In this document: piece after piece, positions 6,094 to 29,058 of the stretch
How the letters are laid out: each line of letters starts with the position of its first letter
Position numbering within the stretch: the first letter of the stretch is position 1
Virus record (IMG/VR): IMGVR_UViG_3300027969_000334
Span: 1 to 29,073 of that record
DNA length: 29,073 bases
Strand: one strand, 5' to 3'
Source of the DNA: a virus
Position numbers and translations under genes: made by a program
The notes under the pieces: generated by a model
What the model was told of the DNA's origin: nothing
Databases searched by the model: none
What the model saw: only the letters and a program-made list of their open reading frames with translations

Positions 6094-9000
6094 TGAATTT
6101 TTACTATGGTGTTGTAGAGAATAGAATTGATCCGTTAAAACTTGGTCGTTGTCAAGTCCGAGTAGTTGGGCTACACACGCATGATAAATCTCAGCTACCA
6201 ACAGCAGATTTACCATGGGCACATCCGATGCAGCCAGTTACTTCTGCCGCAATGAATGGTATTGGTAGTTCTCCTATTGGTCCAGTTGAAGGTACATCAG
6301 TAATTGTTATCTTTGCTGATGATGATAAACAACAACCAATTATGATTGGTACAGTTGGAGGAATTCCATCATCACCAGCACCTATTGATGCAGATGATAA
6401 CACACCAATTACTTCTGCCGTAAAAGTAGAAAAGATAGAACTAAGAACTGTTCCTGGACCAACCAGTGGAGTGCAATTAACATTTTATGATCCAGAATAT
6501 GGTTCTACTAACTTAACAAAAGATTTAAAGCCAAACATGAAAGTTGTGGCTTTTGGCATTCCAACAGAAACTACTATTGTTTCTATTGACAGTGGTACTA
6601 AAATTACAATTAGTAAACCAGTTATAAAATATCAAGAGAACATTGTAAATTTTGAGGCTGCACCATCTAACCTAGATGCGATTCAGAAAACTAAAGTAAA
6701 TGATTTTATCGATAGTATAAATCCATTTAAGGCTAAAGATCCAGTAGCCAAGACTCCTGTAAATTCATCTATACCCACTGTACCACCACCAAAAGAATCT
6801 CCAAACGCTGCTCTTTCTACGCAAGGTATTAAAGCACTTCTTGCTGCAGCAGATAAAGTTGGTTTAACAACTAAAGAACAAAAGTGCGCATTGTTAGGTA
6901 TTTGTGGTGGTGAGAGTCGTTGGATTACACCAAATGATGAAAAATATCAATATAATAAACCTGCATATTTAAAACAAATTTTTTCATTTGCAACAGATGC
7001 AGAAGCAGAGAAATATTCTAATGCCGTTAAAAAGGGTATGACTCGTTATGAGTTTTTCTCATGGGCATATGGACCAAATGGTAATGGAAAGGCTCTTGGA
7101 AATAAAACCAATGATGAAGGTGGTAAATATTATGGAAGAGGATATATTCAGCTAACTGGTAAACCTAATTATGAACTATACCAGAAAGAAGCTGCAAAAT
7201 ATGGATATAATCTTAATATTGTCAATGATCCAGAATCCATAAACACTGACATTAATGCAGCTGCTGTTATTGCTGCATTATTCATTAAATTAAGAACTCC
7301 AGCTGGAGTTAGTCCTAATGCTCATCCTGGATATTTTTATGCAGCGAAAGCGAGGGTAGGTAATAATACTGCAGAAATTGCAGCACTTAAAAAATCTTAC
7401 TATGAATACTTTTATGGATATACATCTGATGTAGGTGCAGAAAAAGATGCTGGACCAGCAAAAATAGAATCTCCACCAGTAGGTGTCGTTACCTTACCAC
7501 AACCATCTGCAGAGTCAGTTAAAACTGGATCTGATACGATTGGATTTAGAGACCCAAACAATAAGTATCCGCTAAAAGATTATGTTGGTGAACCTGATAC
7601 CAATCGTTTAGCAAGAGGAATTATAGAGGGCACTGTTCTTAAGAAAAAAGATGTATTAAGAAAACGAACAGTACCAAAAGCCAATAATGGAGGATTTTGG
7701 GATCAACCAGAAGCAGCGTATGGTGCAGAGTATCCATTCAATAAAGTATTCGAAACAGAATCTGGGCATGTACAAGAATTTGATGATACTCCAGGCTATG
7801 AAAGAATTCATACATACCATCGCACAGGAACATTTAGTGAAATAGATCCTTCAGGTTCTCAGATTAATTATATTATTGGTGATAATTATATTATCATGGA
7901 TAAAAATGGTTGTGTATCTGTTGCTGGAGAGTTGAACATTACAGTAGATGGCAATACAAATATTTACGCTCGCAATGATGCTAATGTGCAGGTGGCAGGT
8001 AGTGCAACAGTTAATGTTGGTAATACATTAACTGTTGGAGTATACAGTGATGTTAATATGGCTGTTGGTGGTAACTTTAATCTTAAAGTTGCTGGTGACT
8101 ATAATGTACAAGCTGCAAATATAAATCATCTAGCCGATAACTACCTTAGTCTTAGTGCAAAAGAGTATAGTCTCGTTTCATCTGGATCTATCAACATGCT
8201 CGGCTCCAGTAAATTTAATCTCCAGTCTAGCGGTAGTATGGATATTAAAGTTGGTGGAATACTTTCTGCAGATTACACTCAAGGACAATTTGGTAATGGT
8301 GCAGCTGGAACTGAAACTGTTGTTGTACAACCAGTTACTCTCACTCCACCTGAAATTGGATTGCCTACATTTAAAACTATACCATTTGAAGTGCCAAAGG
8401 AAAGATCGTTTGAAGAAAAAACTGCTGCAGAAACTCCAGATGATTACGATACTGCCGAAGGTCGCAGATTATTAAACAAACAACAAATAAAAGAAGGACA
8501 AGAGACACCTGCTCCAGTCGTTGCCGTAGAAGCAGCACCTCCAACTAAAGGTACAAAAACAAATATCCCTGTTGATTGTCAGATTATCTACAATACTAAA
8601 AACTTTACCAATGATTTTAGAATGTCAACTAATTTTATTTTAGGTAAGTTAATGGAGGGTGGTGTCGGTGGTAAACATAAGTTAGTTGATCAGATGTTAA
8701 AAGATACTAAAAATGGTCCAGATAAGTTGTATACTGTTTCAGAAATTGTATGTAATCTTGCTCAGACTTGTCAAAATATTTTAGAGCCAGCATTAAAAGT
8801 TTTACCTAGAGGCATAGATGGTTTAGGTAAAACATGGACAATTAACTCAGGATATCGTTTAAAAGGATTAACTGGTGGTGAATCTCCGACATCTGATCAT
8901 CCTAAAGGAAGAGCATTTGATATTGGAACTATGCCAAAAACTGGAGATTTTGAACAATTCAAAAGAAATTATGATCTTATTGTACAGTTAGAAAAAATTC

Positions 9001-9185
9001 TTCCATATGATCAACTAATTTTAGAATATCAGTATCCAGGTACATGCTGGATACATGTATCTTATAACGCAAATTCTAGAAGAAAACAAGCATTTACTAT
9101 GGTAAACCATCAACCATATAAGGGTAGTATAACTGGTGGATTTGTTCTGCTTGAAAACATCCCAGCACCACCTAAGAAACACTAA
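6093..9185 (+). CDS. 5: gp5-like central spike with GH19-like lysozyme and M15-like peptidase domains
   Basis: A 1030-residue spike protein, much longer than T4 gp5 (575). Residues 1-95 are the OB fold (FYYGVVENRIDPLKLGRCQV, then GTSVIVIFADDDKQQPIMIG and TVGG). Residues about 237-445 are GH19-like: acidic E274 in CGGESRW and YYGRGYIQLTGKPNYE around Q353. Residues about 597-723 are a beta-helix with alternating short strands, such as NVQVAGSATVNVGNTLTVGV. The C-terminal domain (about 815-1015) has an M15-type peptidase pattern: SGYR at 919, H936-x6-D943 in SDHPKGRAFD, and H988 in WIHVS, plausible zinc ligands. Pro-rich linkers separate the parts. The T4 GH24-type lysozyme is replaced by GH19, and the peptidase is extra. 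The spike would pierce and digest the cell envelope. Catalytic activity is inferred. Confidence 0.85.
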   Translation: MNFYYGVVENRIDPLKLGRCQVRVVGLHTHDKSQLPTADLPWAHPMQPVTSAAMNGIGSSPIGPVEGTSVIVIFADDDKQQPIMIGTVGGIPSSPAPIDADDNTPITSAVKVEKIELRTVPGPTSGVQLTFYDPEYGSTNLTKDLKPNMKVVAFGIPTETTIVSIDSGTKITISKPVIKYQENIVNFEAAPSNLDAIQKTKVNDFIDSINPFKAKDPVAKTPVNSSIPTVPPPKESPNAALSTQGIKALLAAADKVGLTTKEQKCALLGICGGESRWITPNDEKYQYNKPAYLKQIFSFATDAEAEKYSNAVKKGMTRYEFFSWAYGPNGNGKALGNKTNDEGGKYYGRGYIQLTGKPNYELYQKEAAKYGYNLNIVNDPESINTDINAAAVIAALFIKLRTPAGVSPNAHPGYFYAAKARVGNNTAEIAALKKSYYEYFYGYTSDVGAEKDAGPAKIESPPVGVVTLPQPSAESVKTGSDTIGFRDPNNKYPLKDYVGEPDTNRLARGIIEGTVLKKKDVLRKRTVPKANNGGFWDQPEAAYGAEYPFNKVFETESGHVQEFDDTPGYERIHTYHRTGTFSEIDPSGSQINYIIGDNYIIMDKNGCVSVAGELNITVDGNTNIYARNDANVQVAGSATVNVGNTLTVGVYSDVNMAVGGNFNLKVAGDYNVQAANINHLADNYLSLSAKEYSLVSSGSINMLGSSKFNLQSSGSMDIKVGGILSADYTQGQFGNGAAGTETVVVQPVTLTPPEIGLPTFKTIPFEVPKERSFEEKTAAETPDDYDTAEGRRLLNKQQIKEGQETPAPVVAVEAAPPTKGTKTNIPVDCQIIYNTKNFTNDFRMSTNFILGKLMEGGVGGKHKLVDQMLKDTKNGPDKLYTVSEIVCNLAQTCQNILEPALKVLPRGIDGLGKTWTINSGYRLKGLTGGESPTSDHPKGRAFDIGTMPKTGDFEQFKRNYDLIVQLEKILPYDQLILEYQYPGTCWIHVSYNANSRRKQAFTMVNHQPYKGSITGGFVLLENIPAPPKKH

Positions 9186-9194
9186 GGAAACATA

Positions 9195-9491
9195 ATGGGT
9201 GGCTTTGCTAAAGAAGGTGATTTGTCTCAAGGTATAGATGGACCAGCTACTGCTCTAACCTATAAGAACCAAGCAGTTAAGACTTTTGTTCAAGGAATGA
9301 GAATAGCACTTGTCGGAGACCAATACCAGCCTCATCAGGTAGGGGTGGTTACTCATAGTGCTGCACAACGAGAAATTACAACTGGATCTTCAAAAACATT
9401 CTTTGAAGGTAAGGCAGTAGCCAGATATGGTGATTCGATCGCCGATGGCGATAAAGTTGGTGGCGAAGGTTTTAACACTTTCATAGAATAA
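9195..9491 (+). CDS. PAAR-repeat spike tip protein (gp5.4-like)
   Basis: A 98-residue protein starting MGGFAKEGDLSQGIDGPATA. Its Gly-rich turns, the H47/H54 pair in QPHQVGVVTHS, TTGSSKTFFEGKAVARYGDS and the IADGDKVGGEGF end fit PAAR proteins. These fold into a small cone that sharpens the tip of the VgrG/gp5 spike, usually around a metal ion. It lies 9 bases after gp5, with AAGGAA as Shine-Dalgarno at the end of the gp5 gene. No cysteine is present, so the usual three-His/one-Cys metal site is not fully visible. Confidence 0.82.
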   Translation: MGGFAKEGDLSQGIDGPATALTYKNQAVKTFVQGMRIALVGDQYQPHQVGVVTHSAAQREITTGSSKTFFEGKAVARYGDSIADGDKVGGEGFNTFIE

Positions 9492-9492
9492 C

Positions 9493-9499
9493 CTAAATA
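9493..9499 (+). promoter_or_regulatory. Weak late-promoter-like element (CTAAATA) before gp25
   Basis: ACCTAAATAAACG fills the 14-base gap between the PAAR and gp25 genes and resembles the ACCTAAATATG element before gp4. A start six bases downstream would leave almost no leader before the gp25 ATG. It may therefore serve later genes or be a chance match in AT-rich sequence. Confidence 0.2.
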
Positions 9500-9505
9500 A
9501 ACGAT

Positions 9506-9898
9506 ATGGCAAGAATAACTAGACTCTTTTCAGATTTGGACCTTAACTTCACAGTTCATCCTGTGACTAAAGATATAACACGCAGATTTGATGAAGATGC
9601 TATCAAACAATCTGTTAAAAATCTTCTATTAACTAGAAACTTTGAACGACCATTCCATAGTGAGATTGGTTCTCCTATTAGACAGTTATTATTCGATCTA
9701 CCTGGACCGATGTTCAATATTATGCTTCAACGAGCAGTCATTGATGTGATTAACAATTTTGAGCCAAGAGTTGATATTATAGATGTTAGAGTGGATGATT
9801 ATTCCGATGCAAATGAAGTTTATATAACTTTAGAATTTAAAATAGTCAATACCGAGAGACCACTTACTCTCGAATTAGCCTTAGAGAGAACACGATAA
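9506..9898 (+). CDS. 25: Baseplate wedge subunit gp25
   Basis: A 130-residue protein (T4 gp25 is 132) of the GPW/gp25 family. It shows the family layout: FSDLDLNFTVHPVTKDITRR at the N-terminus, then DEDAIKQSVKNLLLTRNFER with PFHSEIGSPIRQLLFD, and NNFEPRVDIIDVRVD carrying the EPR motif of gp25 proteins. In T4-like tails gp25 forms part of the inner wedge core with gp6 and gp53 and resembles a sheath subunit domain that primes sheath assembly. The next gene (gp6) starts on the base after its stop. Confidence 0.92.
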   Translation: MARITRLFSDLDLNFTVHPVTKDITRRFDEDAIKQSVKNLLLTRNFERPFHSEIGSPIRQLLFDLPGPMFNIMLQRAVIDVINNFEPRVDIIDVRVDDYSDANEVYITLEFKIVNTERPLTLELALERTR

Positions 9899-17045: not shown

Positions 17046-20000
17046 ATGGCTATCGATTTTAACACCGAACCGTATTACGACGACTATAACGAATCTAAAA
17101 GATTCTTGCGTATTCTGTATCGTCCAGGATATGCTGTTCAAGCACGAGAACTCACACAAATGCAGACTATTCTGCAGAATCAAATTTCTCGTTTCGGTAA
17201 CCATGTATTTAAAGAAGGCTCTTTGGTAATCCCAGGTGCTATTGGTTTAGATACTAAAATCGGATATGTTAAATTAGCATCCACATATGGTAATGTTTTA
17301 GCAGATTCTGTAGTTGCAGAATTTAATGGATTAACTATCGAAAATGCCTCTGGAGTTCAGGCACAAGTTATTCATTATAGTTCATCTTCAGGCGCAGATC
17401 CTGCCACATTCTTTATTCGTTATTTAAATTCTGGTGACAATAATGCCACAAAAACATTTTCTAATGACGATGTTTTAACTAATTTGGCTGGAACAAATTC
17501 TGCTGGTGACGCTGTAGCTGCAGGTACATATACGGTTCAAGCAGCATCATCCTCTTCTACTGGAGTAGGATCTATTGCCACTATACAACAAGGTGTTTAT
17601 TATATCAAAGGGCACTTTGTTTTAGTTCCAGAACAAAAAATTATTCTGGACAAATACACAAATACTCCATCTTATAGAATTGGTTTAGCTACAACAGAGT
17701 CTGTTGTTACAGCTGAAGAAGATACTACTCTATTTGATAATGCACAGAACTCATTTAACTATGCTGCTCCAGGTGCTCATCGTTATTACATTGATGCTGT
17801 ACTAACTAAACTTTCTACTGACAGCACTTCAGATACTGATTTTATTGAGTTGATTCGTGTCAACGCTGGACAAACTCAAAAGATTGTTGACAAATCAGAG
17901 TACTCATATCTAGAAAAAGAATTTGCTCATAGAACATATGATGAATCTGGTAATTACACAGTTAAGAATTTTGAGATTGATGTTCGTGAATATAGAAATA
18001 ATAATCGTGGTGCTTGGGTAACAGGACAAGTTTATTTAACTGGTGATGTTGTAACCAATTCTGGTAAAACATATGTTGCTAAAAATTCTGGAACATCACT
18101 AAACAATACACCTCCAACTCATACATCTGGACTTGTTTATGATGGTTCATCTAGCGGTTCAGGTACAACAGGTATTCAGTGGGAATACAATGAAACTCCT
18201 TACTACAACAGAGGAGTTTACACACCAGCAGTTGGCTCTAATCTTTCAACTAACCAAGCAAATGAGGCAAAATTAGCTATTGGTTTGGAGCCAGGAAAAG
18301 CATATGTGCAAGGTTATGAAATTGAGAAACCAGCAACTGAATATGTCACAGTACAAAAAGCAAGAGATTATGTTTCTGTAGAGAATTCAGTTATTCCAGC
18401 GACTGTTGGTAACTATGTTTTAGTAACTAATTTAAATGGTGCTCCTGGAGTTAATAGTTTAACTCAAGTGACTCTTTACAATAGAGTAACATCAGCTGTT
18501 GGAACTATTCCATCTGGTGCTACTGCAGTTGGTACTGCTCGTGTTCGTTTTATGGAATACCATAATGGAACCATCGGTGCACAAACTGCTATCTACAAAC
18601 TAGGTTTATTTGATGTTCAAATGACATCTGGATATGACTTTAATAGAGATGTTAAATCTGTTTACCATGTTGGTTCTTCTGATGATGTAAACTTAAATTT
18701 CACTGCAGATATTGAAGGTACTGCTACAGTAGGATCTGGAACATTAGTTCGTTTAATTGGTTCTGCTACTGCATCAAATTCTCAAACAATTACTGGTACT
18801 GGAACTTCTTTCCAGACAGATCTTAAAGTTGGTGATTATGTTTTCTTAGGCACTGCTCTAAGAAGAGTCACCGCAGTTGGATCACAAATTCAAATAACTG
18901 TTGATTCTAATATAACTATTACTGGTGTGACAATTGATAGAGTTGAAACTCAAATTTATGAGCCAGAAAACGCTTCTTTATTGTTTCCGTTTCCATACTA
19001 TGCAATTAAATCTATAAGTGATACAAATTATACTGTATATGAAACTTTTACAGGTACAGTATCTTCTGGATCATTTAGTATAACAACTTCTTCTGGTACT
19101 ATGGCTTCTGCTGCAGATCAAGATAATTATACTATTATTGATACTAGCGCAGCATCAGGTGGTGCAGTAATTACACCAGTGACCATCACTCCATCAGGTT
19201 CCACTACCACTATTACTGTTAATACTTCTTATAATGGTCGTAGTGTTTTTGTTATCGCTGCAGTAAATAAGAGCGGTGCATCATTAACTAAGAAAACGAA
19301 AACATTAGTTCCTAATGCAACTAAGACATTTACCACTCAAGCGACTGGTCAGGTAACTCAACTGTTGCTTGGTAAGGCAGATGGATATCGTTTGATTTCT
19401 GTTAAAATGAAATCTGGCACATTTGCATCTTCTAGTGGAAGTTACGCTATCGATATTTCAGATCGTTTTATCTGGGATGATGGACAAAGATCTACTCACT
19501 ATGATCAAGCAAGATTAATTCTTAAAAATTCATATGCTCCACCAGAAGCACCATTTGAGGTAACATTTGATTACTTCACTCATGGCGCAGGGGATTACTT
19601 CACTAAAGACTCATATGTAGACATTAGTGATTATGGTGCACTTCCTTATTTCCAAGGTATTGCATTAAGAGATGCTATAGATTTTAGACCAAGAATTGAC
19701 GATGCTGGAACATCATATACTGGAAGTAACGCATCTATAACATTACTACCAAAGCGTGGTATTGATATTACAACTGACTTCTCATACTACCTAGCAAGAA
19801 AAACTAAAATTGCTATAGATTTTGGTGGTACATTCTTTGCAATTAATGGTGTGTCATCTTTAAATCCTGGAGAGCCACTAGACCCAACACTTGGTTTGGT
19901 TCTTTATAATCTAACATTAGAGCCATACACATTCGGAACATTAAATAATAATGTTCAGGTTAATCGAATCGATAACAAACGATACACTATGCGTGATATC

Positions 20001-23000
20001 GGTAAATTAGAAAAACGAATTGATAATCTAGAATACTATACTTCATTATCATTGCTAGAACAGCAAACAGAATCTCTAAACATTACAGACGCATCTGGTT
20101 TAGACAGATTTAAAAATGGATTTATTGTAGATAATTTTGCAGGACATAATACAGGAGATACTTCTTCTCCAGACTACTTGTGTTCTATTGATATGGAAAG
20201 AGCAGAACTGCGTCCATTCTATACAATGCAGAATGTAAACTTAATTGAATCTGTTTCTTCTGATAGTGCTCGTACTTCTGCAAAATATAAATTATATGGT
20301 GATGTTATTACATTACCTGTAGTTGATCATCTTCCTATTGTTAAACAAGCATACGCTTCTCGTTTAGAAAACATTAACCCATTTGCTGTGTTTACTTTCC
20401 TTGGTGATGTTAAAATTAATCCATCATCTGATGATTGGTTTGAAACTGATCGTCGCCCAGATATCGTTGTTGATATAGAAGGTAATTTCTCAACAGTTAA
20501 AAACTTAGCTGAAAAGGCTGGTGTTCTTGGAACTGTTTGGAATGCATGGCAAACTCAATGGACTGGTGCTCCAATTAGCACTGGCAGTATTAAATACACG
20601 ACTGGTGGTAACTGGGCTTCTCGTCAAGGTGATGTATACTTAACACAAGCTGAATTACAAGCCAAGTTTGGTATTACTTCTTGGGGTAATGCTCGTCAAA
20701 TTACAGTTGAAACTACTGCAACTCAAGTTGGTCAAAACAGAACTGGTGTAAAAACTAGCCTTGTTGAAAAGATTGATAGACAAGTTGTTGGAGATCGTGT
20801 TCTATCGACTGCAGCTATTCCATACATTCGTTCAAGAAATATTCTTGTTCAAATTCAAAAGTTAAAACCTAATACTCGATTCTATCCATTCTTCGATGGT
20901 ATCGATATTTCTGCATATTGCACACCAGCCACTAAAATTGCTTATACTCCAGCTGGTGCTGACGATGCTGCAAAATTGGTTACACATAATAAATTTAATA
21001 CTGAGACTAATGTTGGTTCTAATGCAACTGCAACTACTCGACAAATTAATGGCGACAGCCAAGTTTGTTTAAATCGTGGTGATGTTATTACTGGTGGCAC
21101 ATCTGGTGCAACTGCAGTTGTTGTTGGTAAAGAATATAACATCGATGATAATACATACGCTTTGTTTGTATCTAATGTTATAGGAACATTTTCTACCACA
21201 GAAACTATCACAGCATCTAACATATTAGGTTATGCATCTGCTGCTACTGGAACTGTTGGAACAGTTACTACTAAAGCATCGGGTAGTTCATTAATCTCCA
21301 ACTTTAATGGAGATTTAAATTTACTCTTTAATATTCCAAACAACGATTCATTAAGATTCCGTTGTGGTAGTCGTGAATTAAAATTAGTTGATGCTACAAC
21401 TGCGACAGGAGCGTTCACTTCTCGTGCACGAGCAAATTATCGTGCAGAAGGTATTATTGAAACTAAACAAAGAACAGTTCATGCAGTTCGTAATGCAGAG
21501 TTAGCACAAGAACCACTCGAAGATAATCAAGTTATTACACAAACTTCTGAACGAGTTGTTGCTGATACTGGTTGGTGGGATCCACTTGCCCAAACATTCT
21601 TAATTGAACAAAAGGGTGGATGTTTCTTATCTAAAGTTGATGTATTCTTTGCTACTAAAGATACAGCAGTTCCAGTCACTATCGAAATTCGTGAAGTGGT
21701 TAATGGTTATCCTGGAAAACGAGTTCTTCCATTCTCTCGTGTTACACTAAAACCAGAGTATGTTAATATTTCTGAAAACACAGTATTGCTGGATGGTGTA
21801 GATGTTGCTTCTTATGATACAGCTACTACATTCACATTCCCTAGCCCAGTTTATGTTCAAGAAAATACTGAGTATGCAATCGTTTTAGCGTCAGATTCAA
21901 ACAATTATAAAGTTTGGATTTCTCAAGTTGGTGATCAGATGCCTGGAACTTCTCGTACTATTTCTGAGCAACCATATCTTGGTTCATTGTTTAAATCTCA
22001 AAATGCTTCTACTTGGACAGCAGATCAAACGCAAGATTTAAAGTTTACAATTTATCGTTGCCAATTCCAAACTAATCAAGATTCTAATGTAGTGTTTGAG
22101 AATGATACTTTGCCAAATGTAACTTTAGTATCAGATCCATTTGAGACTAGATTACCTGCTAGTGGAACAAACTATAAAGTTCGTGTATGGCACGCAAATC
22201 ATGGAATTCCATCAGGTTCTAAAGTTACTATTAGTGGTGTTTCTGCTAATGTCAATGGAATTCCATATGCACAATTTAATACAACACATACAATCAGTGA
22301 TGTCGATTTAGACAGCTATTGTATCACTTTGGCTGGTGCTGCAACTTCTTCTGGATATGGTGGTGGTTCTGCTGTTAGAGCAACTCGACATGTTCAATAT
22401 GATGCAGTACAACCATTAGTTCAAGTTCAGTCTTTCTCTGAAACTCCGCTTAATTTCCGTCTAAAGGGTATTAGTGGTAAATCTGTAGATTCTACTACTC
22501 AATCTGCTTATACTCGAGATGCATCTTACGCTGGTGTGCTAGTTAACGAAACTAATTATTTTAGTTCTCCAAAGATGATTGCGTCTTCACAAAATGAGGC
22601 TGACACATCATATGGTTTAAGTGGTGATAAATCAGTGCAATTCAATATTGTTATGAGCACAACTAATGATGCGCTATCTCCAATTATTGATACTCATAGA
22701 ACCAGTTTAGTTGCTGTTCAAAATAAGGTTAACAATCCTTCAGAAACTAATATGAATGTGGCAAATTTAGATTATAACACAATCTTATCTGCAAACACAA
22801 ATATTGCATTTACTGCAGCGACACAAAGAATTAGTTCTTCTAACTCTACTGCTAAAGCTGCATTGGCTACTTTAACTGTTGGCAAATATCTAGTTGTTAC
22901 TGGTGACACTCCAACAGCAAATAACCAAACATACCTTATCACTGAAGTTGCTTCCGATGGCTCTTATGTAACATTGAGTGGACCAAATGCAATCCAAGAC

Positions 23001-23420
23001 GATACTGCTGGTGATGCCATTACCTTGGTTCAAAGAGAAAGATTTGCTTCTGAAATTGCTCCAACAGAAAGTTCTACATATAGCAAATATGTGACCAAGA
23101 AAATCAATCTGGCAAACCACTCTAACTATCTAAGAGTTAAATTTGCAGCTAATATCCCTGCTGATGCTAGCGTTGAAGTATGGTATAAAACTAATATCGT
23201 TGGTTCAAACACTGCATTTGAAAATGCAAAATACACTCAGATGACAGTAGATTCTATTGTTCCTAATTCTTCAAATCAAGAAGGTAAGTTCTATGATGCT
23301 TCTTATTCTTTAGATGACTTAGTGTCATTTGATGCTATTCAAATTAAACTTGTTATGAAGTCTACTAATAGTTCTGAAGTTCCAAGAATTAAAGATCTTC
23401 GTGTTATTGCTTGCGTATAA
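17046..23420 (+). CDS. Giant DUF4815-type baseplate/tail structural protein
   Basis: A 2124-residue protein, the largest in the window. The N-terminus is typical of DUF4815 proteins of marine T4-like phages: IDFNTEPYYDDYNESKRFLR, ILYRPGYAVQARELTQMQTI and LQNQISRFGNHVFKEGSLVI. Later conserved stretches include AIDFGGTFFAINGVSSLNPG, DIGKLEKRIDNLEYYTSLSL and WWDPLAQTFLIEQKGGCFLS with VTIEIREVVNGYPGKRVLPF. These are separated by Thr/Ser/Gly-rich beta regions, and a PTHTSG module lies near residues 355-385. Its place after gp8 suggests a functional replacement for the T4 gp9/gp10/gp11 peripheral baseplate proteins, probably anchoring fibres. That role is inferred. It ends in a TAATG overlap with the next gene and has its own late-promoter-like octamer upstream. 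Confidence 0.8.
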   Translation: MAIDFNTEPYYDDYNESKRFLRILYRPGYAVQARELTQMQTILQNQISRFGNHVFKEGSLVIPGAIGLDTKIGYVKLASTYGNVLADSVVAEFNGLTIENASGVQAQVIHYSSSSGADPATFFIRYLNSGDNNATKTFSNDDVLTNLAGTNSAGDAVAAGTYTVQAASSSSTGVGSIATIQQGVYYIKGHFVLVPEQKIILDKYTNTPSYRIGLATTESVVTAEEDTTLFDNAQNSFNYAAPGAHRYYIDAVLTKLSTDSTSDTDFIELIRVNAGQTQKIVDKSEYSYLEKEFAHRTYDESGNYTVKNFEIDVREYRNNNRGAWVTGQVYLTGDVVTNSGKTYVAKNSGTSLNNTPPTHTSGLVYDGSSSGSGTTGIQWEYNETPYYNRGVYTPAVGSNLSTNQANEAKLAIGLEPGKAYVQGYEIEKPATEYVTVQKARDYVSVENSVIPATVGNYVLVTNLNGAPGVNSLTQVTLYNRVTSAVGTIPSGATAVGTARVRFMEYHNGTIGAQTAIYKLGLFDVQMTSGYDFNRDVKSVYHVGSSDDVNLNFTADIEGTATVGSGTLVRLIGSATASNSQTITGTGTSFQTDLKVGDYVFLGTALRRVTAVGSQIQITVDSNITITGVTIDRVETQIYEPENASLLFPFPYYAIKSISDTNYTVYETFTGTVSSGSFSITTSSGTMASAADQDNYTIIDTSAASGGAVITPVTITPSGSTTTITVNTSYNGRSVFVIAAVNKSGASLTKKTKTLVPNATKTFTTQATGQVTQLLLGKADGYRLISVKMKSGTFASSSGSYAIDISDRFIWDDGQRSTHYDQARLILKNSYAPPEAPFEVTFDYFTHGAGDYFTKDSYVDISDYGALPYFQGIALRDAIDFRPRIDDAGTSYTGSNASITLLPKRGIDITTDFSYYLARKTKIAIDFGGTFFAINGVSSLNPGEPLDPTLGLVLYNLTLEPYTFGTLNNNVQVNRIDNKRYTMRDIGKLEKRIDNLEYYTSLSLLEQQTESLNITDASGLDRFKNGFIVDNFAGHNTGDTSSPDYLCSIDMERAELRPFYTMQNVNLIESVSSDSARTSAKYKLYGDVITLPVVDHLPIVKQAYASRLENINPFAVFTFLGDVKINPSSDDWFETDRRPDIVVDIEGNFSTVKNLAEKAGVLGTVWNAWQTQWTGAPISTGSIKYTTGGNWASRQGDVYLTQAELQAKFGITSWGNARQITVETTATQVGQNRTGVKTSLVEKIDRQVVGDRVLSTAAIPYIRSRNILVQIQKLKPNTRFYPFFDGIDISAYCTPATKIAYTPAGADDAAKLVTHNKFNTETNVGSNATATTRQINGDSQVCLNRGDVITGGTSGATAVVVGKEYNIDDNTYALFVSNVIGTFSTTETITASNILGYASAATGTVGTVTTKASGSSLISNFNGDLNLLFNIPNNDSLRFRCGSRELKLVDATTATGAFTSRARANYRAEGIIETKQRTVHAVRNAELAQEPLEDNQVITQTSERVVADTGWWDPLAQTFLIEQKGGCFLSKVDVFFATKDTAVPVTIEIREVVNGYPGKRVLPFSRVTLKPEYVNISENTVLLDGVDVASYDTATTFTFPSPVYVQENTEYAIVLASDSNNYKVWISQVGDQMPGTSRTISEQPYLGSLFKSQNASTWTADQTQDLKFTIYRCQFQTNQDSNVVFENDTLPNVTLVSDPFETRLPASGTNYKVRVWHANHGIPSGSKVTISGVSANVNGIPYAQFNTTHTISDVDLDSYCITLAGAATSSGYGGGSAVRATRHVQYDAVQPLVQVQSFSETPLNFRLKGISGKSVDSTTQSAYTRDASYAGVLVNETNYFSSPKMIASSQNEADTSYGLSGDKSVQFNIVMSTTNDALSPIIDTHRTSLVAVQNKVNNPSETNMNVANLDYNTILSANTNIAFTAATQRISSSNSTAKAALATLTVGKYLVVTGDTPTANNQTYLITEVASDGSYVTLSGPNAIQDDTAGDAITLVQRERFASEIAPTESSTYSKYVTKKINLANHSNYLRVKFAANIPADASVEVWYKTNIVGSNTAFENAKYTQMTVDSIVPNSSNQEGKFYDASYSLDDLVSFDAIQIKLVMKSTNSSEVPRIKDLRVIACV

Positions 23421-23650
23421 TGGAAGGTTTTGTTAATATACAGAATAAGGAAGGTCTCGTGAGAGACCTATCCACTGGCGCAGTCATAAATACAAATAGA
23501 ACTGATTATGAGAATTATTTGCAAAGAAAAAATGCAGTTAAACAATTAAATAACCAAATTAAACAAAACTCTGATAAGATCGAAAAAATTGAATCAGATG
23601 TAACAGAGATAAAAGAAATGCTCGCAATGCTTATTAAGGGTAAACAATAA
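23420..23650 (+). CDS. Small coiled-coil structural/assembly protein
   Basis: A 76-residue protein. The ATG at 23420 overlaps the stop of the giant gene (TAATG), which fits the coupling used throughout the operon; an in-frame TTG at 23411 is less likely. The first half (VNIQNKEGLVRDLSTGAVIN) has the 'x-LVRD-x-x-T-GA-(V/I)-N' pattern found in small proteins of marine T4-like phages. The second half, from LNNQIKQNSDKIEKIESDVT to IKEMLAMLI, shows heptad spacing of Ile/Leu/Val, so a short coiled coil is likely. The gene ends in TAATG with the tail fibre, so it may act as a fibre-attachment or assembly factor. Function is not known. Confidence 0.65.
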   Translation: MEGFVNIQNKEGLVRDLSTGAVINTNRTDYENYLQRKNAVKQLNNQIKQNSDKIEKIESDVTEIKEMLAMLIKGKQ

Positions 23651-24867
23651 TGGCAACAATCGTACTTCGCAGTGTAAAGGGCAGTCCGCTAACGATTGCA
23701 GAGGCAGACGCTAACTTTGATAACCTGAATACTGAAGTTGGTTCCAAATTAACAGCATCTGAATATACAGCTGCAGATGTTCTAACTAAAATTAAAACTG
23801 TTGATGGCGCATCTTCTGGTTTAGATGCAGACTTGCTAGATGGATTAAATACTAGCAGCAGCGATACTACTGGAAACTCAGTTGTTACTCGATCTTCTGG
23901 TAATTTCTCTGCTGGAACTATCACTGCTGCCCTAGTTGGTAATGTAACAGGCAATGTAACAGGTAATCTTACAGGAACTGTTACTGGTAATGCAACCAAT
24001 GTATCTGGCATTGTTTCTATTAATAATGGTGGAACTGGAGCAACTACAGAATCTACAGCAAGAACTGCGTTAGGTCTTGGAACTATTTCTACACAAGCAG
24101 CATCTGCTGTTTCTATCACTGGTGGTTCTATTACTGGCATTACTGATCTTGCGATTGCTGATGGTGGTACTGGTTCTTCAACTGCAATTCAAGCCAGAAC
24201 AAACTTGGGATTAACCATTGGTGCTGATATTCAACCATTCTCAAATGAATTAACTAATATTGCAGCACAAACTGGTACTGGACTATTCATTAAAGGTAGT
24301 AGTGGTTCGTACTACCAGAGAACTATTACAGCTGGTAATAATATTTCTATCACTAATGGTGATGGTATTTCTGGCAATCCTACTATTACTGGCTCATCAA
24401 ATCCATCTGTAAATTATATTGTTAAAACAGGTACAAATGGTGAAGGTGATATCGGACAATCTGCAAATAGATTTAATGTAATTTATGGTACTTCCACTTC
24501 TGCTCGATACGCTGACTTGGCAGAAAGATACACAACTGATATTGAATATGCTCCAGGAACAGTTGTTGTAGTTTCTTATGACGAAAATGGTGCTGAAGCA
24601 ACTCAAAGTTTTGGTGTGAGTCAAAGAGTATTGGGTGTTGTTTCTACAAACCCTGCATTTTTAATGAACGATGAAGCACCTGGACAGGCAATCGCTCTCC
24701 GTGGTCGTGTTCCTACTCAAGTAGTTGGTCCAATCAGAAAAGGTCAACCATTAGTTTCTATGCCAGATGGACATGCTGCAAGTGGTGACCATCAAAATTC
24801 TTTTGCCATTGCATTAGAAACAAACTTAGACTCAGGTATTAAATTAGTTGAATGTGTAATTTTATAA
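23650..24867 (+). CDS. Tail fibre protein with conserved C-terminal domain
   Basis: A 405-residue tail-fibre-type protein. The N-terminus (ATIVLRSVKGSPLTIAEADA, NFDNL) resembles baseplate-attachment segments of phage fibres. VDGASSGLDADLLDG (residues 51-65), the N-x-TG repeats GNVTGNVTGNLTGTVTGN (97-114) and two NGGTGATT/DGGTGSST...AR-x-x-LGL blocks are hallmark fibre-shaft motifs. The C-terminal 120 residues start at ARYADLAERYTTD (286-298). They contain GTVVVVSYDENGAEATQS, VLGVVSTNPAFLMN and ALRGRVPTQVVGPIRKGQPL, a compact domain seen at the end of marine phage fibres and probably the tip or a trimerisation domain. The radical SAM gene follows 6 bases after its stop. Confidence 0.8.
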   Translation: MATIVLRSVKGSPLTIAEADANFDNLNTEVGSKLTASEYTAADVLTKIKTVDGASSGLDADLLDGLNTSSSDTTGNSVVTRSSGNFSAGTITAALVGNVTGNVTGNLTGTVTGNATNVSGIVSINNGGTGATTESTARTALGLGTISTQAASAVSITGGSITGITDLAIADGGTGSSTAIQARTNLGLTIGADIQPFSNELTNIAAQTGTGLFIKGSSGSYYQRTITAGNNISITNGDGISGNPTITGSSNPSVNYIVKTGTNGEGDIGQSANRFNVIYGTSTSARYADLAERYTTDIEYAPGTVVVVSYDENGAEATQSFGVSQRVLGVVSTNPAFLMNDEAPGQAIALRGRVPTQVVGPIRKGQPLVSMPDGHAASGDHQNSFAIALETNLDSGIKLVECVIL

Positions 24868-24873
24868 TGATTC

Positions 24874-25953
24874 ATGACAACCCATCCAATTGTCTTTCAT
24901 AAGACAAATGTATCTCTTTCAGATATACTAATCCCAAAAGACTTAGTGGTCTATCTTAAGACCACTGAGACTTGCCAACTCAACTGCCAACACTGTTTTA
25001 CAAATGGTGTCAACGGTAAAAAGATATACTTTAATCCCCAAAGAACTGTAGACTGGTTTGAACGACTCCACGAGGAATGCCCATCTTTTAATGGTGGGAA
25101 TATCACATTCCATGGAGGAGAGCCATTCCTCGCTCCATTAGAAGACATGTACTATGTCTGGGATAAAGTATCAAAGATATTCCCCAATCTTAACTGGTCA
25201 TGTTCGACTAACCTATGTTTCAATCTAACTGAAGACCATATGGAGTTTTTCAGAACTGTTCTAAAGAACGGATTCTGTACTTCTTGGGATAAGGGTATTC
25301 GGTTTGAGAATGATAAACAAGAAGCACTTTGGCGAAAGAATCTTCAAACCCTAGTAGATGCAGGACATAATATTACGCTTAACATTAGTCTGAATAAACA
25401 GCTAATGGAAATGGATACTACTGAGTTAGTTCTGTGGTTGAATACTTTAGGTGTGAATTGGGTTCAATTCGAAAGGCTAACCCATGATGGCTCGGCTCTG
25501 GTAAATACTCACATATTTCCTGCAAATAAAGATCAAGATGACTGGTTTGTTAGAATGCACGAAACCTATCAGACAATAAAACCTAAATATAAAGATGTCC
25601 TATTGGAAGGTGTGTATTCCTCTTTAACTAAAGGTATACATGGTGGAGTTCGTTGTAGAGATTGTGAACAGAAAATCTTTACGATTAATGCCGATGGAAC
25701 TGTGGCTGGATGTCCAAATGCTGCAGTTGGTAATGGGTTCGGAGATATATTCCAACCTATTAGAACTTTGCTCTCCGCCAGAGGAAGAATAAATAACATT
25801 ACATGCGAGATAGAAAGAGACCCTCGTTGCTATACCTGTGAAGTATTTGATATCTGTAATAGCGACTGCCACCAACTGAAATGGCAGGGAGATATCTGTG
25901 CAGCACCAAAAACACTAATGCAAAGGTTAAAGAATGACGACAGCTGGCACTAA
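24874..25953 (+). CDS. Radical SAM/SPASM peptide-maturase-like enzyme
   Basis: A 359-residue enzyme. C34-x3-C38-x2-C41 (CQLNCQHC) binds the SAM [4Fe-4S] cluster, and GGEP is at 81-84. The C-terminal half is a complete SPASM domain. C264, G275 and C280 fit CX9-15GX4C; C319-x2-C322-x5-C328-x3-C332, a gap and C342 fit CX2CX5CX3C-gap-C. That would hold two auxiliary clusters. SPASM enzymes usually modify ribosomal peptides or proteins through Cys, Ser, His or other side chains. The next gene overlaps its end by 20 bases and has a Cys/His-rich C-terminus, the obvious candidate substrate. No clear Shine-Dalgarno precedes the ATG; it may be translated by coupling to the fibre gene. Composition is about 40% GC by line sampling, far above the three genes at 26470-29058. 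Chemistry is unknown. Confidence 0.9.
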   Translation: MTTHPIVFHKTNVSLSDILIPKDLVVYLKTTETCQLNCQHCFTNGVNGKKIYFNPQRTVDWFERLHEECPSFNGGNITFHGGEPFLAPLEDMYYVWDKVSKIFPNLNWSCSTNLCFNLTEDHMEFFRTVLKNGFCTSWDKGIRFENDKQEALWRKNLQTLVDAGHNITLNISLNKQLMEMDTTELVLWLNTLGVNWVQFERLTHDGSALVNTHIFPANKDQDDWFVRMHETYQTIKPKYKDVLLEGVYSSLTKGIHGGVRCRDCEQKIFTINADGTVAGCPNAAVGNGFGDIFQPIRTLLSARGRINNITCEIERDPRCYTCEVFDICNSDCHQLKWQGDICAAPKTLMQRLKNDDSWH

Positions 25954-26470
25954 TATAACGAAAGCAAATATTACTGCTTCGATGGAAGCACTTAAATCAT
26001 TCAATAATGATATTGTTTGGCATAGTGGTAATCAACCATTTCAAACAGATATTACTGGTGGTGATGCTACTGGTTATGCAACTCAAACTTACGCAGATGA
26101 AATTTCAGATACTAATGTAACAGCATCTACTATTACATTAAATTTTATAGCATATGCTAGACTGTTATCTAGAATTAGAAGTGTTCAATTAAAGAAGTGG
26201 TATCAAAATCAAGGTGACCCAAGATCATCTCTGCAATTTGATGGGACGGAAATTACCAATTTAAATACTAACTATGATGCTGTTGCAGCTGGAGTTTCAT
26301 TAAATGGAACTACTCCACCTGCGTCAGAAGGAACAATTTCTGCTTCTGAATTAGATGCATTTGTGAATTCTTTATCAGAAGCTATTACTGCCAATAGAAC
26401 TAATACAGTTCTTATTGAAGAGTTTTATTGCCATAGCAATTGTCATGGTTCATGTCACGGTAGTTTATAA
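25934..26470 (+). CDS. Candidate radical SAM substrate with C-terminal (CHxx)3 tail
   Basis: A 178-residue protein of no family I recognise. The first 165 residues are Thr/Asn/Ala/Ser-rich and contain no Cys. They include WHSGNQPFQTDITGG (29-43), a helical ITLNFIAYARLLSRIRSVQL with KKWYQNQGDPRS (67-98) and ELDAFVNSLSEAITANRTN (139-157). The last 14 residues are YCHSNCHGSCHGSL: three CHxx units holding all three cysteines. AAGG lies 7 bases before the ATG, and the gene overlaps the SPASM gene by 20 bases, so co-expression is nearly certain. Two readings fit: a RiPP-like precursor with a long leader, or a structural tail protein with a modified or metal-bound tip. The CH-x-(S/N) repeats recall the His-Xaa-Ser (Hxs) target peptides of radical SAM systems, though no HxsC or HxsD is present. 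Confidence 0.7.
   Translation: MTTAGTNITKANITASMEALKSFNNDIVWHSGNQPFQTDITGGDATGYATQTYADEISDTNVTASTITLNFIAYARLLSRIRSVQLKKWYQNQGDPRSSLQFDGTEITNLNTNYDAVAAGVSLNGTTPPASEGTISASELDAFVNSLSEAITANRTNTVLIEEFYCHSNCHGSCHGSL
26429..26467 (+). other. C-terminal CHSN-CHGS-CHGS putative core/modification region
   Basis: This is the coding part for residues 166-178. Each unit begins Cys-His, and units 2 and 3 are identical at the peptide level (CHGS) with different codon choices (tgtcatggttca versus tgtcacggtagt). Synonymous divergence between the copies suggests selection on the peptide and not a recent DNA duplication. Confidence 0.65.
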
Positions 26471-27228
26471 TGTATATTGTTCCATTTGATTCTGATACAC
26501 TAAAGAAAATTATTGTTGGTGAAATTGATTCACCAGAAGTTAACTATAAAGATTCGAGTATTAAAGGTAAGAATTTTATTACCTATTTTAGCAATTTAAA
26601 ATATAAAACAATTAATATTGAGTTCGCAGATATTTCTATCGATGAGAAGAAAGAACTATTGTGTGAATATATTAAACACAATTCAACTGCTAATATTGAA
26701 CAGCTATTAGTCACTGTTATTAAAATTGTATTCTATCAAAAAGGATATGATTTATCTTTAGTTGATAAATCAAAATCAGATGCTGAATATCTACAAAAGA
26801 GTATTTTAACTAATTCTGAAATTAAAGAATTCGTTCAAGAAAACGAACAATTAGTTAAAACATTATGTAACATTTTAGACGGAACTTTGCTTTATGCAAT
26901 TAAAAATTTAAATGCATATAAACAAGAAATGGGCGACTTTATCACAAACAATATTGTAGTTGATAAACAAGAAGTAGGAAAGACATTTGTTAATCTATTT
27001 CAAAATGAAACATTCAATTCTCATTATTATGCAGCTATCCCAAAATTTGACGATATAAAATACTTTGAGTTTTATTTCGACAGACCAATTTATTCAGGCA
27101 AAACTTTAATGTCACATATAACTGAGGGTTGTATTATTTTTCCTTTGTTAAGAATGATATTAGAAACACCATTGACTGCTGAACAATTTAAATCTATTTA
27201 CGAAGAGACCAATGTTACATCTCTATAA
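26470..27228 (+). CDS. Unrecognised AT-rich protein, first of three after the (CHxx)3 gene
   Basis: A 252-residue protein of no family I recognise. It begins MYIVPFDSDTLKKIIVGEID, has a Lys/Ile/Asn-rich helical body, and carries a motif-poor C-terminus with FYFDRPIYSGKTLMSHITEG. Three cysteines are scattered (LLCEY, TLCNI, EGCII). There are no signal peptide, membrane segments or known motifs. Its ATG overlaps the previous stop (TAATG), and the next gene starts 17 bases inside it, so it is cotranslated with the CHxx protein. Sampled lines run near 25% GC. It could be a partner protein (scaffold, chaperone or recognition element) for the cassette or an unrelated late protein. Confidence 0.55.
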   Translation: MYIVPFDSDTLKKIIVGEIDSPEVNYKDSSIKGKNFITYFSNLKYKTINIEFADISIDEKKELLCEYIKHNSTANIEQLLVTVIKIVFYQKGYDLSLVDKSKSDAEYLQKSILTNSEIKEFVQENEQLVKTLCNILDGTLLYAIKNLNAYKQEMGDFITNNIVVDKQEVGKTFVNLFQNETFNSHYYAAIPKFDDIKYFEFYFDRPIYSGKTLMSHITEGCIIFPLLRMILETPLTAEQFKSIYEETNVTSL

Positions 27229-28096
27229 TTCCTGTTATGTCTATCCAGACGCAATGTTTGATCCGTCAATTTCTGATTATATCGTAATTGGGCAGAAACA
27301 TAACATTTTAGGTGTTGGAGTTGAAAATAGTTTTTACTATAATAATGTTATAGTGAAACAGTGTTCTGCACGATTTGCGACATATGAAGATTTTATTAAT
27401 GGTAACTTAGTTGAACCACTATGCAGTAATAGAGAAAAGTTTATCATCTATTGTGATGATGATACTATGATCAAATTATTTACTGCAAAAATTAAATCTC
27501 ATATTTTTAATTTTGATGAGTGTTTATTTCTTGAACTTGCAAAGTTATTTGGTGTTCGTTTAAAAATTAAATCAAAGTTAATTGACTCTAGTAATAAACA
27601 AATTATTAGCGATCTCGGCGATAAGTTTATCAATTTAACTAAGTCATCTAATGTTAATAAATTTGAAATGTCTCAATACTGGGTTTGGGAAAACGCTGGA
27701 ATTGAATGGAAGATCGCCAATAGAAAATGTGGTGTTCCAAATAGGCATATTGATATAGTAACGGATCTTATTAATCGTTATGTATATTCTTTCTTTGATG
27801 AAGCACAAGCAAGTTACCTTTCAAGAAAAGAAGATGGCTGGGCAACCGATCCAGTTAATCAGCAATTTAAAACAGTAGTTTCCATGAAAGATCTATACAT
27901 GGAAATGAGAAAAGAATTGGCTTTATTTACGGATCCATTAATTTTGCAATTCTTTGAGACTGGTGTCACTGAAGAACTATTAAACGATCCACAATTTCTA
28001 TTATTAGTATCTAATGATAAAGTAGACACTTGGTTGCTTAGATGGCTACTTAAATTACCACAATCAAAAATTACAGATTTGGATTTAATAGCATGA
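27212..28096 (+). CDS. Unrecognised protein with MxxLYNSCY N-terminus
   Basis: A 294-residue protein of unknown function. The N-terminal MLHLYNSCYVYPD and FIIYCDDD (residues 77-84) recur in the next gene as MIYLFDNCYLST and IIYCD (71-75) at a similar distance, so the two probably share an N-terminal alpha/beta domain and arose by tandem duplication. The middle has QYWVWENAGIEWKIANRKCG, a Trp-rich stretch not shared with its neighbour. No catalytic motif is recognised. It overlaps both neighbours (17 bases upstream, 4 downstream), consistent with one transcriptional and translational unit running from the tail fibre. Confidence 0.55.
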   Translation: MLHLYNSCYVYPDAMFDPSISDYIVIGQKHNILGVGVENSFYYNNVIVKQCSARFATYEDFINGNLVEPLCSNREKFIIYCDDDTMIKLFTAKIKSHIFNFDECLFLELAKLFGVRLKIKSKLIDSSNKQIISDLGDKFINLTKSSNVNKFEMSQYWVWENAGIEWKIANRKCGVPNRHIDIVTDLINRYVYSFFDEAQASYLSRKEDGWATDPVNQQFKTVVSMKDLYMEMRKELALFTDPLILQFFETGVTEELLNDPQFLLLVSNDKVDTWLLRWLLKLPQSKITDLDLIA

Positions 28097-29058
28097 TATA
28101 CCTATTCGATAATTGTTACCTATCAACTACAAATAGTATTGTTGAAACCTGCAAACAAGTTTGGATAGGTACGCACCCGAAACTTCAAGATCCAATGATT
28201 GATCTTACATATGATATTTTACATTCTTATGAAGAGATCGATGACGAGCAACTTGACGAACTATTCAATAAGATTCATCAAGATCACTCAGATGTAAAAA
28301 CTATAATTTACTGCGACATTAATAATTTTATGTATGTTTACTCATACTTCTTTAATGGTGTTTTAGAAAAATCTGCTGTTAAAGAGTTATACTCATTTGA
28401 TATGCTTAAAGAAAATTATAGAATTGGTACATTTGCAATTAGAGATGTAGAGTTTGTTGATTTACCAAAGACTCTGAAAGGAACAGATACATCATCTACC
28501 TTTTCATCTTTATTAACTGAAACTAGAATTGAGATCGCTTTTGCTAATTCAGTTAGAGGTAATGAAGATGCATTTAATTTTTGTGTAGATCGTGCCACAA
28601 AAATATATGATGGATCTCCTGGATTTTGGGAAAGGGATGCGGAGCAGAATTTGCCAGCACTACTTTCAGATGAAGAATTTACAATTGCAAATTTAACTAA
28701 TGAAGAGTTTATAGAATCATTTGTTTCTCAGTTTAAAGTTGATACTGTTATTGCAAATAATATATTACCAATACTACAGGAAAAATTTGGGTTTGATTTT
28801 ATGACTCACTATTTTACTGTTATTAATGATTGTGCAGATTATGAAGAGTTTTGGGAAGATCTTTCTAGTTTAAATAAAGAAGACTTTATTAAAAACTATA
28901 TGCTCGATCCAGCTAAGGCGATACATCTTCAGTTAGTATTTCCCAATCTTTCTAATTTTGATTCAATCAATCCAATTTTTTGGAATCAAATTTTAAAAAA
29001 TAAAAACAATACATCATGGCTTAATAAGTACAAAGTGAAAAATGGAACTTATAATTAA
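28093..29058 (+). CDS. Unrecognised protein, likely paralogue of the preceding gene
   Basis: A 321-residue acidic protein of unknown function. It begins MIYLFDNCYLSTTNSIVETC and has KTIIYCDINNFMYVY at 69-83, echoing the preceding protein. The central part, with CVDRATKIYDGSPGFWERDA (EQNLPALLSDEE), and the C-terminal ENLEE-type acidic helices have no recognisable motif. The start overlaps the previous stop (ATGA). The end carries an overlapping frame that runs off the window. It is probably the fifth gene of the cassette that starts with the SPASM enzyme, but could equally belong to an independent set of host-interaction genes. Confidence 0.55.
   Translation: MIYLFDNCYLSTTNSIVETCKQVWIGTHPKLQDPMIDLTYDILHSYEEIDDEQLDELFNKIHQDHSDVKTIIYCDINNFMYVYSYFFNGVLEKSAVKELYSFDMLKENYRIGTFAIRDVEFVDLPKTLKGTDTSSTFSSLLTETRIEIAFANSVRGNEDAFNFCVDRATKIYDGSPGFWERDAEQNLPALLSDEEFTIANLTNEEFIESFVSQFKVDTVIANNILPILQEKFGFDFMTHYFTVINDCADYEEFWEDLSSLNKEDFIKNYMLDPAKAIHLQLVFPNLSNFDSINPIFWNQILKNKNNTSWLNKYKVKNGTYN

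Follow-up and report, generated by a model that had tools for sequence, protein, structure and literature searches.

A radical SAM/SPASM enzyme gene and a Cys/His-tailed protein gene in the tail-fibre region of a freshwater phage: the likely start of a dedicated maturation cluster

The locus, the enzyme and the tailed protein

The window analyzed here is an entire IMG/VR fragment record of 29,073 bases. The genes around the enzyme and tailed-protein pair are those of a T4-like tail and baseplate (tail tube cap, wedge subunits, hub/lysozyme, PAAR protein, and tail fibre), and the late baseplate/fibre setting proposed in a first-pass annotation of this DNA therefore holds. The relevant features are as follows.

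9195-9491: PAAR-type spike-tip protein of the same operon (phrog_281)
17046-23420, + strand: very large late-operon protein, 2124 aa (phrog_358, E=0)
23411-23650, + strand: small virion structural protein, 79 aa, a conserved neighbour in T4-like members (phrog_473, E=2e-17)
23650-24867, + strand: tail-fibre-like protein directly upstream of the enzyme, 405 aa (phrog_22593, E=3e-14; phrog_19602 tail fibre, E=2e-13)
24874-25953, + strand: radical SAM/SPASM enzyme rS-A, 359 aa, PHROG 1802 family, the proposed first maturase
25934-26470, + strand: CH-tail protein, 178 aa, a folded domain with a flexible C-terminal tail, the proposed substrate and virion/fibre component
26429-26467, + strand: tail codons CHSNCHGSCHGSL, residues 166-178, the proposed modification site (C/H invariant in 51 relatives)
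26470-27228, + strand: T3, conserved third cluster gene, 252 aa, possibly a substrate-binding or carrier protein (phrog_20767)
27212-28096, + strand: Y4, cluster gene, 294 aa, with homologues in 87 cluster loci
28093-29058, + strand: Y5, cluster gene and relative of Y4, 321 aa, lying shortly before the end of the window

The enzyme carries the SAM-cluster cysteines C34, C38, and C41 (CxxxCxxC), a GGE-type motif (HGGEP, residues 80-84), and the SPASM cysteines C264-x10-G275-x4-C280, C319/C322/C328/C332 (CxxCx5Cx3C), and C342. The cysteine spacing is exactly as first described, and all of these positions are invariant in an alignment of 44 family members with 37-79% identity to the window enzyme. 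The family profile phrog_1802 matches residues 21-353 (E=6.4e-57), in effect the full enzyme, and the PDB profile matches are of the RiPP maturase/anaerobic sulfatase maturase kind. General models score near their limits: PF04055 (E=1e-4, 22.9 bits) lies below its cut-off of 29.5, PF13353 lies above its own, and the SPASM model TIGR04085 (E=6e-5, 23.5 bits) falls slightly short of 27. Judged by these motifs and profiles, the enzyme belongs to the radical SAM superfamily and has a SPASM domain. The profiles of DarE, DarW, and DynA are matched only weakly (DarE best, with 34.7 bits against a cut-off of 650), and no NCBIfam maturase model reaches its cut-off with this enzyme; therefore, its reaction cannot be read from a known family.

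The gene of the CH-tail protein runs in the same direction as the enzyme gene and overlaps it by exactly 20 bases. Its product ends in YCHSNCHGSCHGSL and has cysteines only at positions 166, 170, and 174, all within the last 13 residues, with histidines at positions 30, 167, 171, and 175; both the overlap and the restriction of Cys to the tail had been claimed before and are borne out here. C166, H167, C170, H171, C174, and H175 are invariant in 51 relatives, in an alignment whose mean column identity is 27%. The C-terminal third is matched by phrog_35144 (E=3e-6), and no known fold or known tail protein was matched when the domain was compared with the PDB. In the AF2 model the domain is folded (pLDDT 81) and the last block, which is the tail, is unfolded (pLDDT 53), a predicted flexibility that is as expected of a peptide needing to enter an active site. 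Attachment of heme c (CxxCH) is excluded, the spacing of the tail being CxxxCH.

The consensus of the tail is C-H-x-[S/N]-C-H-x-[S/N]-C-H-x-S-R-G-R-R, where the C/H positions were fixed by the search itself for some loci and were not so in the set found through the enzyme. Tail length and composition vary: one locus (L127) has five units and ends in SSGGW, and variant tails in L282 (YWCHSSHSSHSSHSSRGRR, in which all Cys but one are lost and H-S-S is kept), L400 (YCHSNHCSHSNHGSRGRR), and L401 (YCHTNVPTPPPCHASRGRR) retain H-x-[S/N/A] units. Because these variants drop Cys and retain H-x-S, we infer from the aligned tails that the unit that matters is His-x-Ser/Asn, often accompanied by Cys. Two further tails are recorded here as separate observations. 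In a 200-kb phage, a tail with one added residue (CHSSCHSSCHRSGRGRR; L111:2523-3110) occurs with a cluster holding three more radical SAM genes and three 2OG-oxygenase-like genes. At L112:1642-2865 (- strand), a tailed protein continues past its six CHxS units with a PT-rich linker and a C-terminal domain, which by eye resembles a Hint/intein-type self-processing domain and gave no Pfam match to Hint.

Co-occurrence of enzyme and tail in phages, bacteria and megaplasmids

A search with the enzyme, blind to the tail, returned 6 named-phage and 72 IMG/VR loci at 37-97% identity. A tailed gene, counted only when a complete gene ended in CHxxCHxxCH plus a few residues, followed the enzyme in 61 of these 78 loci; another 15 end less than 650 nt past the enzyme, and 2 (L066 and L067) lack the tailed gene. 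Hence, 61 of the 63 phage loci with enough downstream sequence carry a gene ending CHxSCHxSCHxS(RGRR), and its start mostly lies -25 to +10 nt from the stop codon of the enzyme. The first-pass annotation had held that enzyme loci without a tailed neighbour would count against the pairing. The pairing withstood this check: of the two such loci, L066 comes from a 9.5-kb fragment, and L067 still has a substrate since its contig bears tandem tailed genes several kb away (L138). In the reciprocal direction, scanning IMG/VR with two DNA patterns for CHx[S]CHx[S]CH gave, among the matches listed, at least 73 loci with a complete ORF of at least 90 aa ending in the tail, and the enzyme was found for 68 of these 73 (in the same stretch in 51, elsewhere on the contig in 17). 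The five without it, again among the matches listed, are fragments of 5.6 to 37 kb. The 17 are made up of 16 of the other 21 loci tested by whole-record searches, plus L227, which is on the same contig as L077. Some of the loci share contigs or close ancestry, and the 73 are therefore not 73 independent events. A tblastn search of named phages with the CH-tail protein gave no match because the protein is too diverged.

Given that 61 of 63 loci found blindly are tailed and that C and H are invariant in 51 relatives, the pairing is not due to chance. Adjacency, on the other hand, is only the usual arrangement: the idea that the tailed gene is always next to the enzyme fits the 61 loci but is ruled out as a strict rule by tandem tailed proteins of ~127 aa encoded kilobases away, on which the enzyme would have to act in trans. 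Two tailed proteins in tandem are encoded at L209 (11753-12682 and 12685-13467), L092, L096, L097, L125, L135-L138, L147, L157, and L234. A different origin for such enzymes is conceivable, in that radical SAM genes could be auxiliary metabolic genes serving host metabolism and placed near late genes by chance; 12 of them were counted in one marine T4-like genome, where Fe-S genes were discussed as metabolic (PMC5332604). We give this hardly any credence, however, as adjacency to the tailed gene is fixed across 37-97% enzyme identity and, from genome to genome, the presence of the tail goes with that of the enzyme.

The strong relatives of the enzyme in GTDB genomes are mostly from Bdellovibrionota, many of them on long chromosomal contigs (one contig measures 4.15 Mb). 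Among 369 Bdellovibrionota genomes, 18 carry the enzyme; the tail family occurs in 15 genomes, none of them outside these 18 (Fisher p = 4e-24, kinship ignored), a p-value that overstates the association because the genomes are related. Two of the remaining enzyme-positive genomes encode products with what by eye are variant tails, ending in YCHTNVPTPPPCHASRGRR (G142) and ICHSNCYTPPPKSRSRR (G027), leaving G033 as the only unpaired one among the 18. Enzyme-negative Bdellovibrionota genomes gave some tail-like DNA matches, which on inspection are other-frame or low-complexity; none of them ends in RGRR. In a tree of 73 enzymes, phage and cellular rows are mixed, and well-supported branches require 7 or more switches, an argument for repeated exchange, although some of the "cellular" rows are phage contigs in MAGs. 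One supposed cellular host, Rhodobacteraceae Water_Bin34 (L276), is doubted: its enzyme is identical to that of phage L104, and therefore the MAG contigs are, on this identity, probably phage. No obvious signal peptide was seen by eye in the CH-tail proteins of Bdellovibrionota or phages, and the route by which the bacterial version would be exported to the surface is thus unexplained.

The enzyme also matches 129 Pseudomonas/Stutzerimonas plasmid records at 26-29% identity, and a CHxA-tailed protein likewise matches 129 plasmid records with the same breakdown by organism and mobility. In all four megaplasmid records opened (L422-L425), the gene next to the enzyme is the tailed gene, encoding a 124-aa protein whose start resembles a signal peptide; this protein is picked up by the phage tail profile (E ~1e-6), apparently via the tail only, and the pQBR103 version ends in GYCHSACHGACHGACHGARGWR. 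The cluster comes after GspE, GspF, and prepilins. On pQBR103 itself (L422, NC_009444.1, 5642-16025), a multi-rSAM cluster lies behind a type IV pilus/T2SS-like operon and includes a protein ending in CHSACHGACHGACHGARGWR; the enzyme there is PQBR_RS00200 and the tailed gene PQBR_RS00205. A radical SAM cluster, chemotaxis genes, and a type IV pilus have been described as a conserved block whose functional association "remains unclear" (PMC7070040). The enzyme/tail pairing first proposed from a single locus is thus supported by reciprocal searches in phages, in Bdellovibrionota chromosomes, and on Pseudomonas megaplasmids.

Could the tail instead be an unmodified metal site, with Cys and His as ligands (for instance in a trimer), while the radical SAM enzyme acts on another product of the operon? 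Its regular Cys/His spacing would suit such a site. Iron is bound by His-x-His sites at the tips of T4-type fibres, and metal caps are found on fibre and spike tips, including those of the PAAR type; a PAAR protein is encoded in the window too. Nevertheless, we consider this quite improbable for the following reasons: (i) the co-occurrence of tail and enzyme, including that in trans on a contig, is near-absolute on three replicon types; (ii) the variants lose most Cys and retain H-x-S; and (iii) an unmodified Cys/His tip would account for the tail but not for the enzymes.

Cluster genes, virion setting and proposed maturation

The description of the locus as a maturase-target pair proved right about the pair and too narrow in its frame, since a whole maturation cluster is present, of which the window covers just the first five genes (rS-A, CH-tail, T3, Y4, and Y5). 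The usual order is a cupin/JmjC oxygenase (not always present), the enzyme, the tailed gene, T3, Y4, Y5 (again not always present), and then more radical SAM and oxygenase genes. T3 has homologues in 118 cluster loci, including 20 from GTDB genomes, and gave no PDB match despite a confident AF2 model (pLDDT 89); Y4 had no match in a Pfam search. In close relatives (L017 and others), a second SPASM radical SAM enzyme and a B12-binding one follow Y5, the latter being nearest to KedN5-type C-methyltransferases (E=3e-36, far below the cut-off of that model). The cluster genes also include more radical SAM enzymes, and in most relatives JmjC_2/cupin proteins and 2OG-Fe(II) oxygenases. In the cluster of Burkholderia jumbo phages (L003:14394-15571), two genes are annotated as dihydrofolate reductase; these may be tailoring reductases rather than folate enzymes.

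Of the 82 loci with an R[G/S/A]RR tail end, 73 have the oxygenase upstream of the enzyme (JmjC_2, E=3e-14, in L272; Cupin_2 in L003), as against none of the 25 loci without such an end. Because 24 of these 25 form one clade (that of the window and L037), with further cases in L127, L109, and L112, this link rests on about four independent losses. JmjC_2 proteins include arginine and histidine hydroxylases, and hydroxylation of the RGRR end by the upstream oxygenase is a plausible guess. Genes for A-type Fe-S carriers were found on 6 of 37 cluster-bearing phage contigs, as follows, and IscU on 1 of 37.

G414 (contig of L091), 7799-9765: A-type Fe-S carrier; also on G408, G407, G418, G009, and G010

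Such carriers could supply clusters to many radical SAM enzymes, but at these frequencies, and with no enzyme-free phage control set, Fe-S assembly genes cannot be regarded as a fixed part of the system.

The first-pass annotation had left two fates for the product, a modified virion component or a phage-delivered RiPP. The latter would make the CH-tail protein a precursor in which the fold serves as leader and the modified C-terminal peptide is cut off and released, into the host or from it, as a small toxin, signal, or metallophore. RiPP precursors usually carry their core C-terminal to a recognition region, and the nearest SPASM profiles (DarE/DarW/DynA) make antibiotic RiPPs. Several findings point the other way. 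None of the recurring families among the labelled cluster genes is a protease or exporter, although the unlabelled ones were not all covered, and the CH-tail gene sits among tail genes. In one locus (L109), the tail directly precedes a Peptidase_S74 domain, a fibre chaperone, in the same protein; S74 self-cleavage at an SD..K motif has been shown for related fibres (PMC10769870), and by analogy it would leave the L109 tail near the C-terminus. A Peptidase_S74 domain also occurs beside the cluster in Bdellovibrionota, fused to a pilin N-methylation motif:

L272:962-2056, - strand: pilin N-methyl + Peptidase_S74 fusion beside the cluster (relatives in L265, L270, L277-L280, and L283)

A further indication is provided by Atu_ph07, in which CDS 170 (gp170) is the CH-tail protein and CDS 171 the enzyme. 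According to the published report, virion proteins detected by ESI-MS/MS are concentrated in CDS 31-76, 170-215, and 284-329 (PMC6102473), so that gp170 is the first CDS of the second cluster. The gene numbering of that report agrees with RefSeq (gp215 major head protein, gp198 portal, gp204 prohead core). That gp170 was detected in virions is an inference from this cluster boundary only; its C-terminal tryptic peptide would be NMWYQSANVTASIGVDFCHSSCHASCHNSR. Taken together, the S74 fusion, the Atu_ph07 proteomics, and the tail/fibre location favour a virion component over a RiPP, although modification has not been shown experimentally. We are fairly confident that the product is a virion or surface component rather than a released peptide; release as a RiPP is the weaker of the two options and unlikely, but not excluded.

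The genes, their invariant catalytic residues, the conserved tail, and the reciprocal co-occurrence are matters of observation. From them we consider it very likely, in the absence of direct biochemical evidence, that the target of the enzyme is the tail on the adjacent gene's product, and likely that this freshwater phage carries the start of a dedicated cluster modifying the CHxS tail of a virion/surface protein in a RiPP-like manner, its chemistry and role being inferred. In the proposed mechanism, the radical SAM/SPASM enzyme would recognise the folded CH-tail protein and modify its flexible C-terminal repeat, with (C)-H-x-[S/N] as the unit, most likely introducing into each unit a single cross-link or another bond made by a radical reaction; this would be RiPP-like chemistry carried out at the terminus of an entire protein rather than on a small peptide. 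The second SPASM enzyme, the B12-dependent radical SAM enzyme, and, in most cases, JmjC/cupin and 2OG-Fe(II) oxygenases would decorate the tail further. That His takes part in one radical-made cross-link per unit, and that accessory enzymes add methylation and hydroxylation, is a guess that we hold only tentatively. In phages, the matured tail would be displayed at the tip of a tail fibre or baseplate appendage, and in predatory bacteria and on megaplasmids it would probably be carried on a pilus-linked fibre, acting in attachment. A role of the finished tip in attachment to the target cell is likewise a guess, one that falls just short of an even chance. It is possible, though we rather doubt it, that one widely exchanged and unrecognised system builds the same modified CHxS tip on phage tails, predator pili, and megaplasmid pili, the attachment devices of three very unlike agents that all have to dock onto bacteria; if true, the finished tip would represent a novel type of binding or reactive group derived from protein.

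Relation to known systems

A literature search found no description of the tail or of the enzyme/tail pairing, with most subscription journals outside its reach. A close published counterpart is the radical SAM core cluster of the pBT2436-like megaplasmids, pQBR57, and pQBR103, which has a related enzyme and the same tail on the next product; unlike in phages, the tailed protein there looks exported and is encoded beside a type IV pilus operon. The function of that cluster was published as unclear, and we found no report of a tailed substrate in PMC7070040. The present work names a likely substrate for radical SAM clusters whose role on Pseudomonas megaplasmids had no clear explanation and which, in marine phages, had been taken for genes of Fe-S metabolism. 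Since P. fluorescens SBW25, a tractable strain, can carry the pQBR103 version and other versions occur in cultured jumbo phages, the question is directly testable by mass spectrometry and gene removal. The MAT fibres of Bdellovibrio (PMC10769870) resemble the system in that predators use phage-like S74 fibres and S74 lies beside or within the CH-tail system; the CH-tail family is, however, separate, and the main text of that paper makes no mention of radical SAM or pilin.

The His-Xaa-Ser (Hxs) system (HxsA repeats with the radical SAM enzymes HxsB and HxsC) shares with the clusters His-x-Ser repeats accompanied by at least two radical SAM enzymes; the variant tail CHSSHSSHSSHSS is an HxS repeat, and the second radical SAM enzymes of the clusters weakly match HxsC (31 bits, E ~1e-7, cut-off 268). 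In contrast to Hxs, Cys precedes His in nearly all tails of the present system, B12-dependent radical SAM enzymes and oxygenases are added, and the context is that of a virion or pilus. The cluster enzymes remain below the cut-offs of the Hxs models (HxsC, 31.7 against 267.9 bits; HxsB, 19.5 against 370), and neither HxsB nor HxsC is among the 25 best model matches of the window enzyme. By these models the system is not Hxs, though the HxS repeat unit is common to both.

With the known radical SAM/SPASM RiPP maturases (DarE/DarW, DynA) and the anaerobic sulfatase maturase, the enzyme shares the radical SAM core and the SPASM auxiliary-cluster cysteines; as with RiPP maturases, its gene adjoins that of a peptide or protein substrate with a C-terminal target, and the RiPP-type criterion of a substrate encoded beside the enzyme and co-inherited with it is met. 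It differs from them in forming its own PHROG 1802 family, far below every NCBIfam maturase cut-off, and in that its substrate would be a folded virion/surface protein of ~180 aa without a fixed protease or exporter. We know of no earlier radical SAM maturation of a virus particle protein, and this would, as far as we know, be the first; new radical reactions at the terminus of an intact, folded protein would be of interest in enzymology as well.
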